Assembly: GCF_029504735.1 (NCBI RefSeq)
Contig: NZ_JAQFIP010000004.1
Span: forward strand, 1-64,000
DNA from: Ereboglobus sp. PH5-10
GTDB lineage: Bacteria; Verrucomicrobiota; Verrucomicrobiia; Opitutales; Opitutaceae
Reading direction: 5' to 3'
Length of the DNA: 64,000 bases
The notes below the pieces were generated by a model. That model did no database searches and was not told where the DNA came from. It saw only the letters and a program-made list of their open reading frames with translations. Position 1 is the stretch's first letter, and each line of letters starts with the position of its first letter. Position numbers and translations under genes: made by a program. Positions 5,919 to 41,094 of the stretch are shown here, one piece after another.

Positions 5919-7331
5919 TCAGGTGTTGATGTAGCCTTCCTCGCCGTGGTCGGAAATATCCAGGCCCTGGCGTTCGGCTTCCGGCGCCGGGCGCAGCCCG
6001 ATGACGGCCTTGACGAGATATGCGATGATGACCGTGGCGATGATGCTCCAGGCAAGCGTCACACCCACGGCCTTGAGTTGCGCGAGCAATAAGCCGTCCA
6101 TGATGCCGGCGATGCCGGGGTTGACCTCGGTCGTGGCCAGGACGCCGGTAAGAATCGCCCCGAGCGTGCCGCCCACGGCATGCACGCCGAATGTGTCGAG
6201 CGCATCGTCGTAGCCGAACACGGCCTTGAGTTTTACGACCGCGAAATACGGCACGATGCCCGCGAACACGCCGCAAATCACCGCGCCGGTCGCGTTGACG
6301 AAACCCGCCGCCGGGGTAATCACCACCAAGCCGGCCACAATGCCCGAGCAGAAACCGAGCACCGACGGTTTGCGTTTTGCAACATACTCCAGCACCCCCC
6401 AGGTGAAACCGCCCACGCCGGTGCAAAGCGTCGTTGTCATGAACGCATTCGCCGCGATGCCATCCGCGCCACCCGCGCTGCCCGCGTTGAACCCATACCA
6501 GCCGATCCAGAGTATCGCGGTGCCGACCATGCAAAGCACCATGCTGTGCGGCGCCATTTTTTCGCGTCCGAAGCCAAGGCGCGGCCCGAGAATCACACAC
6601 AGAACCAGGGCCGACCAGCCCGACGACATGTGCACAACCGTGCCGCCCGCAAAGTCGACCGCCTTGATCGCGCCCGCCGCGCCCGACATAAGGCCGCCGC
6701 CCCAAACCATGTGCGCCAGCGGATAATACACGACAAACATCCACACCGTTATGAAGGCCATGATCGCGGTGAACTTCATGCGCTCCGCAATCGCGCCCAC
6801 GATAAGCGCCGGCGTGATGATCGCAAAGGTGAGCTGAAACATCGCGAACACATTTTGCGAAACCCACGGCAACGTGCCCGTCGCGCTCGTCACGCCCTTG
6901 AAAAAGACATGGTCAAGCCCGCCTATGAACGAATTGCCCGGGGCAAACGACAGGCTGAAGCCAATCGCCCACCACAGCACCGTGGACAGCCCCGCGATGC
7001 CCAGGCATTGCGCGAGCACCGAGAGCACGTTTTTGCGGCGGACAAGCCCGCCGTAAAACAACGCCAGTCCGGGCAGCGTCATGAACAACACGAGCGCGGT
7101 GGATGTCATCATCCAGCCGTTGTGCCCCGGCCCGGGTGTCCCCGCGAGGGGGGCGTCCGCCGGGGGAGGCGCGTTGTTTATATAGGCCTCAAGCGCGCCC
7201 AGGCGCGCCTCCGTTGACAAGGGGACGGATGCCGTTCCTGGTGTTTCGGCCCGCGCAGCGAGCGCCATCAGTAATATACTAATTCCGCAAGTCACCGCGC
7301 GGAAAAGTGTGGAGAAGGAATTTGCTTTCAT
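5919..7331 (-). CDS. amtB: Ammonium transporter
   Basis: Inner-membrane ammonium channel, 470 residues. An N-terminal signal peptide (MKANSFSTLFRAV... ending ALAARA) precedes a linker of about 50 residues, then eleven membrane helices. Family segments include ALFYGGLVRRKN, DFAGGTVVHMSSGWSALVL (pore histidine region) and GVFAGIVPYFAV. The ATG at 7331 is preferred to the one at 7340 because it gives a normal basic signal-peptide start. The long periplasmic linker before helix 1 (residues about 40-75, Pro/Gly rich) is somewhat unusual. The partner is GlnK, encoded just downstream. Confidence 0.93.
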   Translation of the reverse strand: MKANSFSTLFRAVTCGISILLMALAARAETPGTASVPLSTEARLGALEAYINNAPPPADAPLAGTPGPGHNGWMMTSTALVLFMTLPGLALFYGGLVRRKNVLSVLAQCLGIAGLSTVLWWAIGFSLSFAPGNSFIGGLDHVFFKGVTSATGTLPWVSQNVFAMFQLTFAIITPALIVGAIAERMKFTAIMAFITVWMFVVYYPLAHMVWGGGLMSGAAGAIKAVDFAGGTVVHMSSGWSALVLCVILGPRLGFGREKMAPHSMVLCMVGTAILWIGWYGFNAGSAGGADGIAANAFMTTTLCTGVGGFTWGVLEYVAKRKPSVLGFCSGIVAGLVVITPAAGFVNATGAVICGVFAGIVPYFAVVKLKAVFGYDDALDTFGVHAVGGTLGAILTGVLATTEVNPGIAGIMDGLLLAQLKAVGVTLAWSIIATVIIAYLVKAVIGLRPAPEAERQGLDISDHGEEGYINT

Positions 7332-7642
7332 GCGTCGCACGGCATAGCACCCCCAACACGGGTCGCGAGGAAATTGATATTATAAGTCTATATTAGAAGT
7401 CTCGCTTACCTTTGAACCGCACACCTTAAGAAAAGCACCAATGGAAATAAACACGGTGATATAAAATTTTTAAATACAACCGGATTTATGAAATAGAATA
7501 ATTAATAAACTTTACGGGAATTATAAAAACTGCAATTCATCCAAGTGCCCGTGCGCAAGCCCCGAAATGAATGCGATATGGCATTTCGATGCCCTGAATG
7601 GCAACCAGCCCGGGCGACATCCAGACATCGCATCTTTCCCGC
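7332..7642. other. AT-rich intergenic region between trpA and amtB
   Basis: No gene is supported here. The 200 bases nearest amtB are markedly AT-rich and include a TATAAT on the minus strand near 7380, which could be the amtB -10 element, but no good -35 partner was found. A weak 7-bp hairpin (CGAAATG/CATTTCG, about 7563-7588) without a T run lies just after trpA. Confidence 0.4.
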
Positions 7643-8443
7643 TTAGCCGACCGCGGTTTTCAATTCGCGGGCGAGGGAATATGTTTTTTCCAGCAAGGCG
7701 GCGCCGGCATGGCGCTCGGTCAGCCGGATGAAGGCGCTGCCCACGATGATGCCGTCGGCAACTTGTCCGATTCGCGCGGCATCATCCGGCGTCGAAATGC
7801 CAAAGCCGACAAGGACGGGGAGCGGCGTGATCTCCTTCAGCGCGGCGACTTGGGCAGCGATGTCCCCGATGTCGTTGCGGTCGTTTTTCACTCCGGTCAC
7901 GCCCTTGACGCTGACGTAATACACAAAGCCTTGCGCATCCTTCAGGATTTTTTTCGCGCGCCGGTTGCTTGTCGCGGGCGAGACAAGCGGGATGAGCGCA
8001 ATGTCCCGCGGGCGCAAAAAACGCGTCAGCTCGCCGGATTCCTCGAAGGGCAGATCGACGACGAGCATGGCGTCGATGCCGGCGGCCTTGGCGTCGGTCG
8101 CAAGGCGTTCGAGTCCGTGTTGCAGAAGCGGGTTGAAATACGAAAAAAGCACGAGCGGAACCGTGGCGTTTTTTTTGCGAATTTCGCGCGCGATGCGCAA
8201 CGCGCCCGCGAGGGTCATTCCGTTGGCGAGCGCTTTTTGCGAGGACGCTTGAATCGCGGGGCCGTCGGCGCTCGGGTCGGAAAACGGCACGCCCAGTTCG
8301 ATGATGTCCGCGCCCGCATCAATCGCTTTCAGGATGAGCTGGAGCGATGTTTCGGCGTCGGGATTTCCAACGGTGAAGAACGCGGTGAACGCCTTTTTGT
8401 TTTCGGCGCGGAGCCGGGAGAATGTCTTGGTGAATCGGTTCAT
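7643..8443 (-). CDS. trpA: Tryptophan synthase alpha chain
   Basis: Cleaves indole-3-glycerol phosphate to indole plus glyceraldehyde-3-phosphate and channels indole to TrpB. The 266-residue TIM barrel has the signature IIELGVPFSDPSADGP with catalytic Glu and Asp, and later VVDLPFEES and GFGIS...ADGIIVGSAF for phosphate binding. It is the last gene of the trpE-G-D-C-F-B-A operon and starts 11 bases after trpB. Confidence 0.96.
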   Translation of the reverse strand: MNRFTKTFSRLRAENKKAFTAFFTVGNPDAETSLQLILKAIDAGADIIELGVPFSDPSADGPAIQASSQKALANGMTLAGALRIAREIRKKNATVPLVLFSYFNPLLQHGLERLATDAKAAGIDAMLVVDLPFEESGELTRFLRPRDIALIPLVSPATSNRRAKKILKDAQGFVYYVSVKGVTGVKNDRNDIGDIAAQVAALKEITPLPVLVGFGISTPDDAARIGQVADGIIVGSAFIRLTERHAGAALLEKTYSLARELKTAVG

Positions 8444-8454
8444 GGTCGGGAAGA

Positions 8455-10227
<1,773 letters not shown>

Positions 10228-10244
<17 letters not shown>

Positions 10245-11040
10245 TTTTCAAAAGTGCCTCAAGCGCGGCGGCGGGGCTTTGCGCCCTCATGAGCGTGGTG
10301 CCGATCAGGAATGCGTCCGCGCCGAGCGCTTGCAGGCGCCGCAATTCGGCCGCCGAGGAAAGGCCGCTTTCAGCGACGATGATTTTGTCCGCGGGAATTT
10401 TCTGAATAAGGTTTTCGGTGAGCCGCGGATGCATCGAAAAGTCTTCGAGGTTTCGGCAGTTGATTCCGATGATGGACGCGCCCGCGCGCAGGGCGCGGTC
10501 GAGTTCCGGTTCGTCATGCACTTCGCAGAGCGCGTCGAGTCGCAGCGTTTTGCAACGATGCAGGAATGCGGCGAGCTCGTGGTCGTCGAGCATTCGCGCG
10601 ATGAGCAAAACGGCCGAGGCTCCGGCGGCGCGGGCTTCGTGGATTTGGTATTCGTCCACGATGAAATCCTTTCGGAGAAGCGGAATTTTTGCGCGCCCCG
10701 CGATATCCTCAAGATAGGAGAGGCGACCCTCAAAGTAATGCGGCTCGGTCAGAATCGAAAGCGCGGCGGCTCCGTTTTTTTCAAGCGCGTCCGCCAGTTT
10801 TAGCGGCTCAAAGGGATCGCGTATCACGCCCGCCGAGGGCGAGGCGCGCTTGAGCTCGGCAATCACGCGCGGCGTTTTGCATTGCCGGCCATCGCGAAGT
10901 GCGTCCGCGAAGGACGGCGCGGGCTGGCGTGATTGCGCGGCGCGTTTTAGTTTTTCGAGCGGGACGTGTTTCTGTTTTTCCTCCAAGTCCCGCCGGGTGC
11001 GGGCGGCGATTTGGTCGAGTATGTGCGCGCGGGTTTTCAT
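10228..11040 (-). CDS. trpC: Indole-3-glycerol-phosphate synthase
   Basis: Closes the indole ring from CdRP. The 270-residue product has the expected barrel motifs: VIAELKRASPSAGVI with catalytic Lys, LRKDFIVDEYQIHEARAAGA, IIGINCRNLEDF, and VAESGLSSAAEL. It overlaps trpD upstream by 4 bases and trpF downstream by 17, consistent with translational coupling through the operon. Confidence 0.96.
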
Positions 11041-12053
11041 TGGCGGCTATAGGCGATGAGTGTGTTAAGTTTTTCGAGCGGAGCGCCGCCGCGGAGGCTT
11101 TCGTCGGCGAGCCGGACGCCTTCGCGCAAGTCGTCCGCGAGTCCGCTCGCGAAGATCGCAGCGCCGGCGTTCAGGAGGACGGCGGCTCTCGCGCCGCCGG
11201 AGATTTCGCCGGAGAGGATTCCCCTCAGGATGCCGGCGTTTTCGCGCGCGTCGCCGCCCCGGACGTCGGTTTCGGGGAAGCGTTGCCCGACAAAAAACTC
11301 GGGGTGCAGCGGGTAGGTTTTGATTTGTCCGTCGCGGAGTTCGCAGACGCGGCTTTCGGCTGCCGCGCTGATTTCGTCGAGGCCGTCCATGCCGTGGACA
11401 ACGAGGGCGCGCTTGCAGCCGAGTTCGCGCAGGGCGTGCGCGTAGATTTCCGTGAGCCCGGGCGCGAAGACGCCGAGCACATGCGTGCCGGCGCCGGCGG
11501 GATTGCAGAGCGGCCCGGCGAGGTTGAAGAGCGTGCGGATGCCGAGCTCCTTGCGGAGCGGCGCGACGCCCGCCATGCAGGGGTGCATTTTTGCGGCGAA
11601 GAGAAAACCGACGCCGATTTCCTGAATCGCGCGCTCCATTTGCACGGGCGGGCAGTCGAGGTTGAGACCGAGCTGCGCGAGCACGTCGGCGGAACCGCAC
11701 AGTCCGGAGGCGGCTCGGTTGCCGTGCTTGGCGATGACGACGCCGGCGCTCGCGGCGACAAAGGCGGAGGTGGTTGAAATGTTGAAGGTGTTTTTTCCAT
11801 CGCCTCCCGTGCCGACGATGTCGGTCGCGGATTTTCCGCCGCAATCGATGAAGCGGGCGTGCCGTCGCATGGCGCGGGCCGCGCCGAGGATTTCGCCGGA
11901 CGACTCGCCCTTGGCGTGAAGCGCGCCGAGAATAAACGCGGTTTGCGCGGGCGTCAGCTCTCCCGCGATGATGTTTTCAACGAGCGCCTGCGCCTCGTGC
12001 GCGTCGAGGTCTTTCCCGGCGGCGATTTTTTCGGCGGCGTGCTTGTGGTTCAT
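11037..12053 (-). CDS. trpD: Anthranilate phosphoribosyltransferase
   Basis: Transfers phosphoribose from PRPP to anthranilate. The 338-residue protein has the glycine-rich PRPP loop DIVGTGGDGKNTFNIST, the KHGNRAASG segment and NLAGPLCNPA, all typical of TrpD. It is not fused to TrpG, unlike the enterobacterial enzyme. It overlaps trpG and trpC by 4 bases each. Confidence 0.96.
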   Translation of the reverse strand: MNHKHAAEKIAAGKDLDAHEAQALVENIIAGELTPAQTAFILGALHAKGESSGEILGAARAMRRHARFIDCGGKSATDIVGTGGDGKNTFNISTTSAFVAASAGVVIAKHGNRAASGLCGSADVLAQLGLNLDCPPVQMERAIQEIGVGFLFAAKMHPCMAGVAPLRKELGIRTLFNLAGPLCNPAGAGTHVLGVFAPGLTEIYAHALRELGCKRALVVHGMDGLDEISAAAESRVCELRDGQIKTYPLHPEFFVGQRFPETDVRGGDARENAGILRGILSGEISGGARAAVLLNAGAAIFASGLADDLREGVRLADESLRGGAPLEKLNTLIAYSRQ

Positions 12054-12628
12054 CGGTCCGCCTCCAGTGTGCGCAGGAAATTGGCGAACTGCATTTTGCC
12101 GCCGGAACTCATTATGGATTCCGGATGATACTGCAGGCCCTCGAGTTTTTTCGCGGCGTTGCGAACGCCCATGATTTCGCCGTCGCGCGCGCGCGCGGTG
12201 ATCTCGAAACCGTCGGGAAGCGACGCCGCGTCCACCGCGAGCGAGTGGTAGCGGACGACTCGGAGCGGCGACGGGAGTTTTTCAAACGTGCCGCGTCCGT
12301 CGTGCGTGATCTCGGAGATTTTTCCGTGGCGGATTTCCTTTGCGCGGATGATTTTCGCGCCGAAAACACTGGCGATTGCCTGATGCCCGAGGCAGACGCC
12401 GAGCATGGGGATTTTGCCCGCGAATTCCTTGATGGCCGGGCAAAGGATGCCGGCGTTTTCAGGACGCCCGGGGCCGGGCGAGAGGATGATCCCGCGCGGC
12501 CGCATTTCGGCGATTTGCCCGAGCGTGACGGCATCGTTTCGCATGGTGACGACGCGCGCGCCGAGCACTTCGACGCAGTGCGCGATGTTGAAGGTGAAGG
12601 AGTCGAAATTGTCGATTATAAGAATCAT
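12050..12628 (-). CDS. trpG: Anthranilate synthase glutamine amidotransferase subunit
   Basis: Class I glutaminase that supplies ammonia to TrpE. The 192-residue protein has the nucleophile Cys in LGVCLGHQAI and the His-Glu pair in LQYHPESIMSSGG, with the N-terminal MILIIDNFDSFTFNIA. It could also serve aminodeoxychorismate synthase (PabA role), as in many bacteria with a single copy. It starts 15 bases after trpE and overlaps trpD by 4. Confidence 0.95.
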   Translation of the reverse strand: MILIIDNFDSFTFNIAHCVEVLGARVVTMRNDAVTLGQIAEMRPRGIILSPGPGRPENAGILCPAIKEFAGKIPMLGVCLGHQAIASVFGAKIIRAKEIRHGKISEITHDGRGTFEKLPSPLRVVRYHSLAVDAASLPDGFEITARARDGEIMGVRNAAKKLEGLQYHPESIMSSGGKMQFANFLRTLEADR

Positions 12629-12643: not shown

Positions 12644-14119
12644 TCAGAGTGTGCTCATGTCGAGGTTTTGGACGGCGAAGCGGACGGCCTTGAACATGGC
12701 GCCGGCCTTTGCGAGGCATTCGTCCGCTTCTTTTTCGGGATCGGAATCGGCGACGATTCCCGCGCCGGCCTGAATGGTGATTTTGCCATCGCGCACGTGG
12801 AGCGTCCGGATGGTGATCGCCATGTCCATGTTGTGCGAGTAGCTGAAGTAGCCGATCGCGCCGCCGTAGGTGCCGCGCGGCCCGTCCTCGAGTTCGTGGA
12901 TGATTTCCATGGCGCGAACCTTGGGCGCGCCGCTCAAGGTGCCCGCGGGAAAAACGGCGCGGAGCAGGTCGAAGGCGTCGTTTCCGCCGTCGAGCTCGCC
13001 CTCAATCTGGCTGACGAGGTGCATGACGTGCGAGTAGCGTTCGACGTGCATGTAGTCCCGCACCTGAACGCTGCCGGGGCGGCAGACGCGCGAGAGGTCG
13101 TTGCGCCCGAGATCGACGAGCATGAGGTGCTCGGCGGTTTCCTTTTCGTCGCGGAGAAGCTCGTCGCAAAGGCGGGCGTCGTCGCGAGGCGTGTCGCCGC
13201 GTTTGCGCGTGCCGGCGATTGGGCGCAGCTCGGCCTTGCCGCGAGTCAGGCGCACCATGGTTTCCGGCGACGAACCGATCCAGTGCGTGTCTCCGATTTT
13301 TAGGAAAAATGTGTAGGGCGAGGGGTTGATGAGCCGCAGTGCGCGGTAGAGTTTGAGCGCGTCGATTTTTGCGCTCAGCGAGAATTTTTGCGAGAGCACG
13401 ACCTGAATGATGTCGCCATCCACGATGTGCCGCTTGGCGCGGTCAACTTTGCGGCAGTAGTCCTCGCGTCCGCTTTTGCTTTCGAAACGCGGCAGGGTTC
13501 CGGCGGGCGGGGGCGTTGCCGGCGCGGGCGGTTTTTCGAGCGACGCCAGTATGCCGTCGATGCGCGCGGTCGCGCTTGCGTGAGCGGCGCGGGGATTTTC
13601 AAACTCGCCGGGGCGCACGCACACAACGGCGAGAATGCTATGGCGCACGTTGTCGAAAATGAGCATTTCGTCGGCGAAGAAAAAACATGCGGTGGGCTCG
13701 CCCATGCCGTTTTTGGGCGGCGGCAGTTTTTCGAATTCGTTGACGGTTTCGTAGCCGATGTAGCCGAGGGCTCCGCCGAAGAAAGGCGGAAGCCCGTCGA
13801 TTTGCGCGGCGTTCACGCCCTTGAGCAATTCGCGCAAGGCGAGGATGCCGCCGGGCAGGTTTTCGGTGATGCCGTTTTTGGTGAAGGTCGCGCGGCCGTC
13901 GCGCACTTGGAAAAGGCCGTTGTTGCCGAGGCCGATGAAGGAGTAGCGACCGAAGCGCTCGCCGCCCTCGACGCTCTCGAAGAGGAACACGTTTTCCTCC
14001 CTTTCGAGCCGTTTGAGAATGGAGACGGGCGTCTCCAAGTCGGCGAGCGATTCCCGGAAAACGGGAATCAGGTTGTGCGTATTGCACAGTGTTTCGAATG
14101 TTTGCAGATCAGGTTTCAT
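12644..14119 (-). CDS. trpE: Anthranilate synthase component I
   Basis: Makes anthranilate from chorismate with ammonia from TrpG, the committed and normally Trp-inhibited step. The 491-residue product has the N-terminal regulatory region (LFESVEGGERFGRYSFIGLG) and the chorismate-binding domain motifs GGALGYIGYE, PIAGTRKRGDTP, DEKETAEHLMLVDLGRND and AGAGIVADSDPEKE. The ATG at 14119 is chosen because MKPDLQTFETL matches usual TrpE starts, and an upstream in-frame extension would run into the attenuator. Expression is likely controlled by the leader peptide and terminator directly upstream. Confidence 0.95.
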   Translation of the reverse strand: MKPDLQTFETLCNTHNLIPVFRESLADLETPVSILKRLEREENVFLFESVEGGERFGRYSFIGLGNNGLFQVRDGRATFTKNGITENLPGGILALRELLKGVNAAQIDGLPPFFGGALGYIGYETVNEFEKLPPPKNGMGEPTACFFFADEMLIFDNVRHSILAVVCVRPGEFENPRAAHASATARIDGILASLEKPPAPATPPPAGTLPRFESKSGREDYCRKVDRAKRHIVDGDIIQVVLSQKFSLSAKIDALKLYRALRLINPSPYTFFLKIGDTHWIGSSPETMVRLTRGKAELRPIAGTRKRGDTPRDDARLCDELLRDEKETAEHLMLVDLGRNDLSRVCRPGSVQVRDYMHVERYSHVMHLVSQIEGELDGGNDAFDLLRAVFPAGTLSGAPKVRAMEIIHELEDGPRGTYGGAIGYFSYSHNMDMAITIRTLHVRDGKITIQAGAGIVADSDPEKEADECLAKAGAMFKAVRFAVQNLDMSTL

Positions 14120-14165
14120 TGGAAAAAATATCACTTGGTTTTCGCATGGGGAAAAATCCGGGCAC

Positions 14166-14203
14166 AAAAAAGGCGGAGCAACACGGGTGCGTGTTTGTCC
14201 GCC
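14166..14203 (-). terminator. trp attenuator terminator (3:4 hairpin)
   Basis: On the minus strand GGCGGA (14203-14198) pairs with TCCGCC (14177-14172). Inside it AACACG (14195-14190) pairs with CGTGTT (14185-14180) around a CACC loop, and a T6 run follows at 14171-14166. It ends about 46 bases before the trpE start. Its 5' arm overlaps the segment that can pair with leader region 2, so it is mutually exclusive with an antiterminator. Confidence 0.85.
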
Positions 14204-14308
14204 GGACGAAAGAACGCGATTACGTCAAATGCCGCGCGTGCGGCCGCGTTCTTTTTTGTGAGCTTGAATGTCTATGCACAAAGGCTGGCTCACCGGCAGA
14301 CTTGCCGG
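14197..14308 (-). promoter_or_regulatory. trp leader alternative RNA structures (1:2 and 2:3)
   Basis: Region 1 CCGGCA (14308-14303) pairs with region 2 TGCCGG (14298-14293) around an AGTC loop. Region 2, extended to GTCTGCCGG (14301-14293), can instead pair over 9 bases with region 3 CCGGCGGAC (14205-14197), one pair being G-T. Region 3 also forms the 5' arm of the terminator. The Trp codons lie 2 bases upstream of region 1 and the leader stop codon follows region 2. A ribosome stalled on Trp would therefore cover region 1 and favour 2:3, while one that finishes would cover region 2 and favour the terminator. Confidence 0.8.
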
Positions 14309-14346
14309 CGCCACCATCGATTAGTCGTGTGCAACTGTGCGCTCAT
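14290..14346 (-). CDS. trpL: trp operon leader peptide
   Basis: An 18-codon open frame, MSAQLHTTNRWWRRQVCR followed by TGA, lies between dapF and trpE in the direction of trpE. Two adjacent Trp codons (14316-14311) sit just before the first hairpin of the attenuator, exactly where ribosome-mediated attenuation requires them. Leader peptides are not conserved in sequence, so the evidence is the tandem TGG TGG, the length, the position and the RNA folds. No strong Shine-Dalgarno precedes the ATG, but such sequences are weak across this window. A plausible -35 (TTGAAA at 14399-14394) is visible without a convincing -10. Confidence 0.8.
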   Translation of the reverse strand: MSAQLHTTNRWWRRQVCR

Positions 14347-14452
14347 GTGATGGCGCGCAAAAGGAACCGCTTTGTTTTTCGACGCAAGTATTTTTTCAAA
14401 CGGGGCGTGTTTTTCATGGCGGGAAACTTTGGACACAGCGGGTCGCGGTGTC

Positions 14453-38968: not shown

Positions 38969-39117
38969 GCTCATCTCATTCCCGCAAATGCCCGCGGGTG
39001 AAAAAATAGTGCGGCGCGCGGGCATTCACACTCCGCAGCGCACGCGGTGGTGAAACTCGCGCAACTTGACAAAACACACGCGCGGGCATTGCGTGCGTTC
39101 TCACCAATTCGTTTAGG

Positions 39118-41094
<1,977 letters not shown>

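Follow-up and report, generated by a model that had tools for sequence, protein, structure and literature searches.

Organization of the trp locus

The window, by which we mean the whole stretch of 64,000 nucleotides that was analysed, carries on its minus strand a trpEGDCFBA operon, upstream of which lie dapF and carAB in the same direction. These genes, except carAB, are listed below with the basis on which they were named; the product of trpE scored 515 bits against the best NCBIfam model, just under its cut-off of 517.7.

7643-8443, minus strand: trpA, named by resemblance
8455-9636, minus strand: trpB, NCBIfam-checked; it too is closest to other classes
9633-10244, minus strand: trpF, NCBIfam-checked
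10228-11040, minus strand: trpC, named by resemblance
11037-12053, minus strand: trpD, named by resemblance
12050-12628, minus strand: trpG, NCBIfam-checked
12647-14119, minus strand: trpE, first gene of the operon, coding part without the stop codon
14453-15268, minus strand: dapF, upstream neighbour, NCBIfam-checked

An ammonium-transporter-like gene (5919-7340, minus strand), also named by resemblance, follows trpA in the same direction, and a TPP riboswitch (60.9 bits) is located on the plus strand at 39105-39218.

A leader region with the following elements lies between dapF and trpE.

14290-14346, minus strand: leader peptide frame (trpL), 18 codons from an ATG (MSAQLHTTNRWWRRQVCR, then the stop codon), with tandem UGG codons at 14316-14311 and the stop at 14292-14290
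14303-14308, minus strand: region 1 (CCGGCA), 5' arm of hairpin 1:2, directly after the Trp codons
14293-14301, minus strand: region 2 (GTCTGCCGG), which pairs through TGCCGG (14298-14293) with region 1, or as a whole with region 3
14258-14293, minus strand: short hairpin GTGAGC/GCTCAC around and after the stop codon, predicted when region 1 is masked
14209-14254, minus strand: extra hairpin of 10+5 bp between regions 2 and 3, seen in every state folded
14197-14205, minus strand: region 3 (CCGGCGGAC), antiterminator with region 2; through GGCGGA it also provides the 5' arm of the terminator
14172-14203, minus strand: intrinsic terminator 3:4, GGCGGA...TCCGCC with an inner stem, -17.6 kcal/mol
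14166-14171, minus strand: T6 run of the terminator, 46 nt ahead of the trpE ATG (14119)

A preliminary description of this DNA had placed here the 18-codon frame with its two adjacent Trp codons, hairpin 1:2, a 9-bp 2:3 pairing, and terminator 3:4 with its T6 run about 46 nt before trpE, and all of these were found again where they had been described, with CCGGCA of hairpin 1:2 at 14308-14303 and the 2:3 pairing between 14301-14293 and 14205-14197. Two overlapping alternative terminators with later T-runs (-19.1 and -9.6 kcal/mol) were given by our own terminator finder. The leader terminator is missing from a simple intrinsic-terminator scan of the window, presumably because loops were limited to 3-8 nt in that scan and the stem has an internal loop. 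The sequence ahead of the leader ATG contains no Shine-Dalgarno-like stretch, and this copy of the leader is carried by one genome only; both points count against an attenuator. No match at the leader locus was obtained with Rfam 15 at the gathering threshold, and the three matches at E <= 10 (E 1.1-6.7) were to eukaryotic families and far below their cut-offs. The exact leader pattern was absent from the viral contigs searched.

Adjacent Trp codons occur in seven short frames (at most 40 codons) on the two strands of the window and are thus not rare, so an unrelated frame of this kind could have come to lie beside an ordinary terminator by chance. However, the leader frame is the only one of the seven with a terminator within 180 nt downstream, similar covarying leaders precede the same gene in other classes, and the leader ranks first in the genome for the covariance model R1 described below, so that coincidence is hardly credible as an explanation.

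Predicted folding and the proposed switch

The preliminary description had proposed folding positions 14120-14350 of the minus strand. This 231-nt stretch folded at -82.1 kcal/mol (z -3.37), better than all 200 dinucleotide shuffles, and it switches as attenuation needs when folded by state, with masked stretches representing an assumed ribosome footprint. In the free RNA, both hairpin 1:2 and the terminator formed with a probability of 1.0, and the terminator did so also with the ribosome at the stop codon. With the ribosome on the first Trp codon and RNA polymerase past region 3, the 2:3 pairing had a probability of 1.0, and after transcription of region 4 the probabilities were 0.54 for 2:3 and 0.46 for the terminator. 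With the ribosome on the second Trp codon, 2:3 had a probability of 0.999 before region 4 was made and of 0.009 afterwards, which counts against the attenuator reading; the terminator wins at equilibrium in this state, and antitermination would then rely on 2:3 forming first. The best structure predicted for the stalled ribosome has both extra hairpins (14293-14258 and 14254-14209) enclosed by 2:3, which keeps eight of its nine pairs because G14293 is taken by the short hairpin. The 2:3 complementarity in the window gave p = 0.03 against shuffles, which we also list among the points against.

With this anatomy, the leader peptide would be translated while the leader is being transcribed. When charged tRNA-Trp is plentiful, the ribosome would reach the stop codon (14292-14290) and cover region 2, region 3 would pair with region 4, and the resulting terminator would halt transcription ahead of trpE. 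When charged tRNA-Trp is scarce, the ribosome would stall at 14316-14311 and cover region 1, which would allow 2:3 to form in place of the terminator and the operon to be transcribed. We infer leader translation, stalling, termination and regulation by tryptophan from these elements, and the folding predictions, together with covariation in relatives, suggest that antiterminator and terminator are mutually exclusive and set by the position of the ribosome.

Trp leaders in other classes of Verrucomicrobiota

Genomes and loci of this analysis are referred to by G and L numbers, respectively. The sample from other Verrucomicrobiota classes comprised 109 trpE loci (L086-L194) that were selected for the similarity of their TrpE and not at random, and the counts use the 106 that have at least 300 nt upstream. 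Two or more Trp within five codons of a frame were present in 63 of the 106 loci, compared with 5 on the reverse strand and a mean of 9.65 (maximum 16) in 20 shuffle sets; for at least three Trp in seven codons, the corresponding numbers were 36, 0 and 0.9. The leaders end in SNRWQWRW, KGWRWQWRKPAMA, ARWLWRGDSPERLA, WWRWW and others. A terminator was located downstream of the leader in 57 of the 106 loci. When leaders and intrinsic terminators were scored separately over the same loci, both were present in 60, only the leader in 3, only the terminator in 6 and neither in 37, an association (Fisher p ~1e-18) that is indicative only, as the sequences are related. Furthermore, in 30 of the 63 leader-terminator pairs compared (67 less four of insufficient length), the 5' arm of the terminator was more complementary to the sequence that follows the first Trp codon than to shuffles (p <= 0.05); for independent pairs, about 3 would be expected. 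This complementarity is absent from the f51 rows (L096-L099) and some others.

The same leader peptide might act by translational or Rho-type control instead of intrinsic termination, and the 46 nt between the terminator and trpE leave room for this, but the T6-tailed terminator stands in the right register and leaders occur together with intrinsic terminators in the loci of other classes, which makes such control very improbable. With regard to an attenuator acting by intrinsic termination, the window resembles these loci (for instance L086-L089 and L106) in its Trp-rich leader and in region 3, which reads CGGCGG(A/G), the CGGCGGA of the window itself also occurring in leaders of other classes. 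The run after the terminator is TTTTTTTGTGTCCG in L087 and L106 and TTTTTTGTGCCCG in the window. The window differs in having WWRR where the leaders of other classes have WxWRW, in a linker that is about 50 nt longer and contains an added hairpin, and in having one non-overlapping terminator, whereas 24 single-leader loci of other classes have two or more.

Covariation and the covariance model R1

For the analysis of covariation, 14 leaders ending inside hairpin 1 were picked by hand, without the window, and aligned (alignment A2). For 1:2 plus 3:4, 93.5% of the cells were paired, compared with 83.9% after shuffling, and nine pairs had two-sided changes, a number reached in only 3 of 500 shuffles; eight of the nine belong to the terminator and one to the base of hairpin 1. 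For 2:3, 95.9% of the cells were paired, there were 10 two-sided cells compared with 4.2 in shuffles (0/500 as high), and the covariation score was also above that of the shuffles; the number of two-sided pairs (three; 244/500) and that of pair types (475/500) were not, which counts against the attenuator reading. Sliding either structure by 1-3 columns lowered pairing to 18-52%. These values favour the structure tested, as it was derived from the same sequences. In this family, hairpin 1 holds the last Trp codon and the following Arg codon (UGGCGG), which may be the reason why the leaders often end in WR.

A covariance model, R1, was built from A2 and thus without the window. In the window, R1 placed the leader first (23.3 bits, E 0.00046), the next match having 12.2 bits; genome-wide the leader was again first among 16 matches, weakly so (E = 0.026, next 0.19), and it is not in the list of the phylum scan at E <= 0.01; this weakness likewise counts against the attenuator reading. 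When R1 was applied to 66 of the 95 loci of other classes that lie outside the model, 36 matched at E <= 0.01, with positions that were not checked singly. Over 288 genomes of the phylum, 58 matches at E <= 0.01 were obtained, 54 from other classes, three from the own family and one from the own class, the last four being at E 2e-4 or weaker. Thirty matched loci were fetched, ten of which are sources of the model itself, and 29 were read (L282 was skipped). A Trp-rich leader was present in 26 of the 29; the remaining three have FWTWSWR in a frame other than the one read (L269, as in L116), six Leu codons (L286) or YGFVYG (L288). The weaker matches L301-L307 have no Trp leader.

R1 matches were also located ahead of trpB or TrpB-like genes, with a Trp leader in L274, L284, L287 and L295 and further in L275, L276, L278, L285, L289, L291 and L296-L300, NCBIfam having confirmed the gene type in L275, L276 and L284 only. 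Such matches occur even in genomes with no TrpE match at E <= 1e-60 (G283, G341 and G427). Leaders at trpB or TrpB-like genes, some of them in genomes without a detected trpE, look as if they served indole salvage.

Absence of the leader from the own order

The own order, as used here, includes the family Opitutaceae. The assignment of this DNA to a verrucomicrobium in the preliminary description is supported by a genome in the window's family group that sequence identity marks as Opitutaceae bacterium TAV5; over its first 8000 bases, the second contig of that genome matches CP007054.1 with 100% identity. The same description had expected a leader of this kind upstream of trpE in close relatives and had regarded its absence there as evidence against an attenuator. 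That expectation failed in the own order, where none of 63 trpE upstream regions (at least 300 nt) had a leader followed by a terminator, three having two Trp within five codons of a frame and four a terminator. In other classes, 57 of the 106 upstream regions have the leader with its terminator, and the leader covaries. R1 gave nothing below E = 0.68 at 53 own-order or family loci besides the window, a test that left out L016 and L032-L043. The leader is thus no feature of the organism's own lineage, and by the criterion of the preliminary description the attenuator would be refuted; horizontal import of the operon from another class is the better explanation of this absence.

The trp genes of the window are themselves unusual in the family. 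A TrpE match was found in 226 of 252 family genomes among the matches listed, and the TrpE of the window is 72% identical to that of G013 and, among the matches listed, at most 50% identical to those of other family members. G013, the sole close TrpE relative among the matches listed, is without such a leader, which counts against the attenuator. G002, of the same genus, has the ordinary TrpE type (48%), and no TrpE match at E <= 1e-40 was found in G001 or in G003 (65% complete), nor was a second TrpE in the window's own genome at this threshold. For TrpB, the searches gave a type of 59-60% identity in G002 and G003 but none of this type in G001 or the window's genome, and a type of 51% identity in all four. 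From these searches, the TrpE and TrpB type of the genus appears to be missing from the window's genome and a foreign set to be present. The second TrpB of the window's genome (contig C11) was considered as a displaced native copy and rejected, since G001, G002 and G003 also carry the C11 type, besides another TrpB or without one, which makes it a paralogue and no evidence of a displaced gene. G001 (99% complete, one contig) has only the 51% TrpB type, and with no TrpE it is a possible Trp auxotroph within the genus.

Source of the operon

When TrpE was compared over 387 genomes of the phylum, the best matches after the window came from other classes, from 61% identity downwards, and the first row from the own family was G218, at only 449 bits. 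For TrpB, all rows above G051 were from other classes (66-71%). In a quick maximum-likelihood tree of 85 TrpE sequences, the window and G013 were placed inside the clade of the other classes (SH-aLRT 98, 95), from which the 53 own-order sequences stand apart. The foreign affinity thus covers two of the seven trp proteins, TrpE by the quick tree and TrpB by scores, and on this basis the operon was very probably imported, together with its leader, from another class. By their taxonomy, the other classes may be Kiritimatiellia or Lentisphaeria, which we take as an assumption. In contrast to the trp genes, dapF is probably native by sequence affinity, since the own order accounts for 52 of the 60 matches, itself excluded, at E <= 1e-85 (G439, of another class, ranks fifth), so that the junction of the import probably lies between dapF and the leader. 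All 687 records from a search of TrpE against plasmids were below 60% identity, and scanning named genomes with a single protein yielded one Lachnospiraceae locus, which served as an outgroup and for nothing else. Another genome of the same order, G051, has a TrpB of the other-class type (C2:86123-87271; 66%, E 1.2e-169), behind which there is maybe a second transfer.

Promoters and the state of the switch

A promoter-like pair scoring at least 9 was found at 38 of 57 leaders, a set that includes the leader of the window, and the score was at least 10 in 27 and at most 6 in the window and five others. In 25 of the 38 leaders with such a pair, only 4-10 nt separate the end of the -10 box from the ATG, a spacing that suggests leaderless translation in many leaders of other classes; the choice of start codon favoured the promoter, and the count has no shuffled control. 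Near the leader of the window there is no sigma-70-like promoter, the best score being 6. This counts against the attenuator reading and is its main weakness: the leader could be fed from upstream or by another type of promoter, or the switch could be dying.

The last of these would mean that the attenuator arrived with the operon, lost its promoter and is now a decaying relic, the trp genes being transcribed from elsewhere. The lack of a recognizable promoter and the leaderless G013 would both fit such decay, but the frame, the two UGG codons, the position of the stop codon, 1:2, 2:3, 3:4 and T6 are all intact despite divergence from the family, and read-through from dapF or carAB would still cross the attenuator, which could therefore work without a promoter of its own. 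We consider a relic improbable. The element very likely attenuates transcription in the classical, ribosome-mediated way and serves a trpEGDCFBA operon that was acquired horizontally. The attenuator reading, already given in the preliminary description, is well supported by anatomy, predicted folding and homology to a covarying family whose model R1, built without the window, finds the leader, and we infer the regulation from these.

Comparison with known attenuators

In E. coli trpL, the stop codon is located between regions 1 and 2. The window resembles the E. coli leader in the short peptide, the adjacent Trp codons followed by Arg, the 1:2, 2:3 and 3:4 pairings and the T-run before trpE, and differs from it in that the stop codon lies after region 2, two extra hairpins lie between regions 2 and 3, and the locus has no Rfam match. 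The trp operon attenuator of E. coli and its trpL are treated in PMC13178558 and PMC1183508. According to PMC7298713, the trpLE(G) mRNA of the alphaproteobacterium Sinorhizobium meliloti begins at the leader ATG, and a Trp leader peptide with an attenuator precedes trpE, as in the window. A start of the mRNA at the leader ATG is likewise suggested by the promoter spacing in many leaders of other classes; unlike in S. meliloti, no such promoter was seen in the window. The trp attenuators of Corynebacterium and Streptomyces, as given in PMC1262725, have two or three UGG codons and a triple gGCC-rGCy-GGCC. UGG codons and complementary triples common to antiterminator and terminator are shared with the Verrucomicrobiota family, in which the triple is CCGCC-GGCGG-CCGC instead.

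According to PMC2965389, a scan published in 2010, leader-peptide systems had to its authors' knowledge been demonstrated only in Proteobacteria and Actinobacteria, apart from one atypical case; the scan itself added Firmicutes. Among the PubMed Central matches listed, no description of a trp leader in Verrucomicrobia, including the Kiritimatiellia, Lentisphaeria and Opitutaceae groups, was seen; most subscription papers lay outside this scope, as did a comparative study published in 2010 by Lopatovskaya and colleagues, which is cited in PMC4833913. As far as searched, the trp attenuator is new to its phylum, and the leader family is without an Rfam match and was not found in this literature. 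The covarying trp-leader family described here occurs in a further phylum, in several of its family groups, and the operon of the window seems to have moved from one class to another together with its regulator. As attenuators need only the ribosome, tRNA-Trp and RNA polymerase, the idea that they travel more easily than protein-based control becomes testable. It is also conceivable, and in our judgement evenly balanced, that the other classes run their Trp regulon (the trpE operon, trpB and TrpB-like genes) on one attenuator scaffold, often translated from an mRNA whose start is at or beside the leader ATG, which can double in tandem, can swap its sensing codons and moves between classes with the operon, as in the window.

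Further observations on leader loci

Two or more non-overlapping terminators were seen at 29 loci of other classes, and at 22 of these (L086-L089, L092, L094, L110, L150, L166 and others) the second terminator is located 7-26 nt past the first, ahead of trpE, with no second leader. An antiterminator belonging to the second terminator found no consistent support among the 29 loci: the 5' arm reached p <= 0.06 only in L116, L127, L134, L170 and L171, four of which are tandem-leader loci. Tandem Trp-leader attenuators precede trpE in L127, L129, L134, L170 and L171, the second leader of L129 having been read by eye. In G353, two trpE copies (on C28 and C104) have the same leader end, MKTTLCKIIFLSKAWRWR, with R1 scores of 73.7 and 75.9 bits, and could be an assembly duplicate. 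Nothing convincing was found for His or Leu/Ile/Val leaders at 25 HisG and 25 LeuA loci from 22 genomes, for which strand and start were chosen crudely and at which HisG or LeuA may not be encoded by the leading gene of the operon.

Among the R1 matches, L286 (~1475-1613, G395; 53.3 bits) has the same scaffold with a leader, MTMMLDNFLLLLLLR, in which six Leu codons stand in place of Trp, possibly a swap of the sensor codon, and it precedes a PuuR-like regulator and a gene named by resemblance as AMP-dependent ligase-like. In L288 and L303 (G528 and G441), the leader is MNIGAYGFVYGLA, with Tyr and Phe, and it precedes two different genes, the products of which both start with MEFNPLGLTS.
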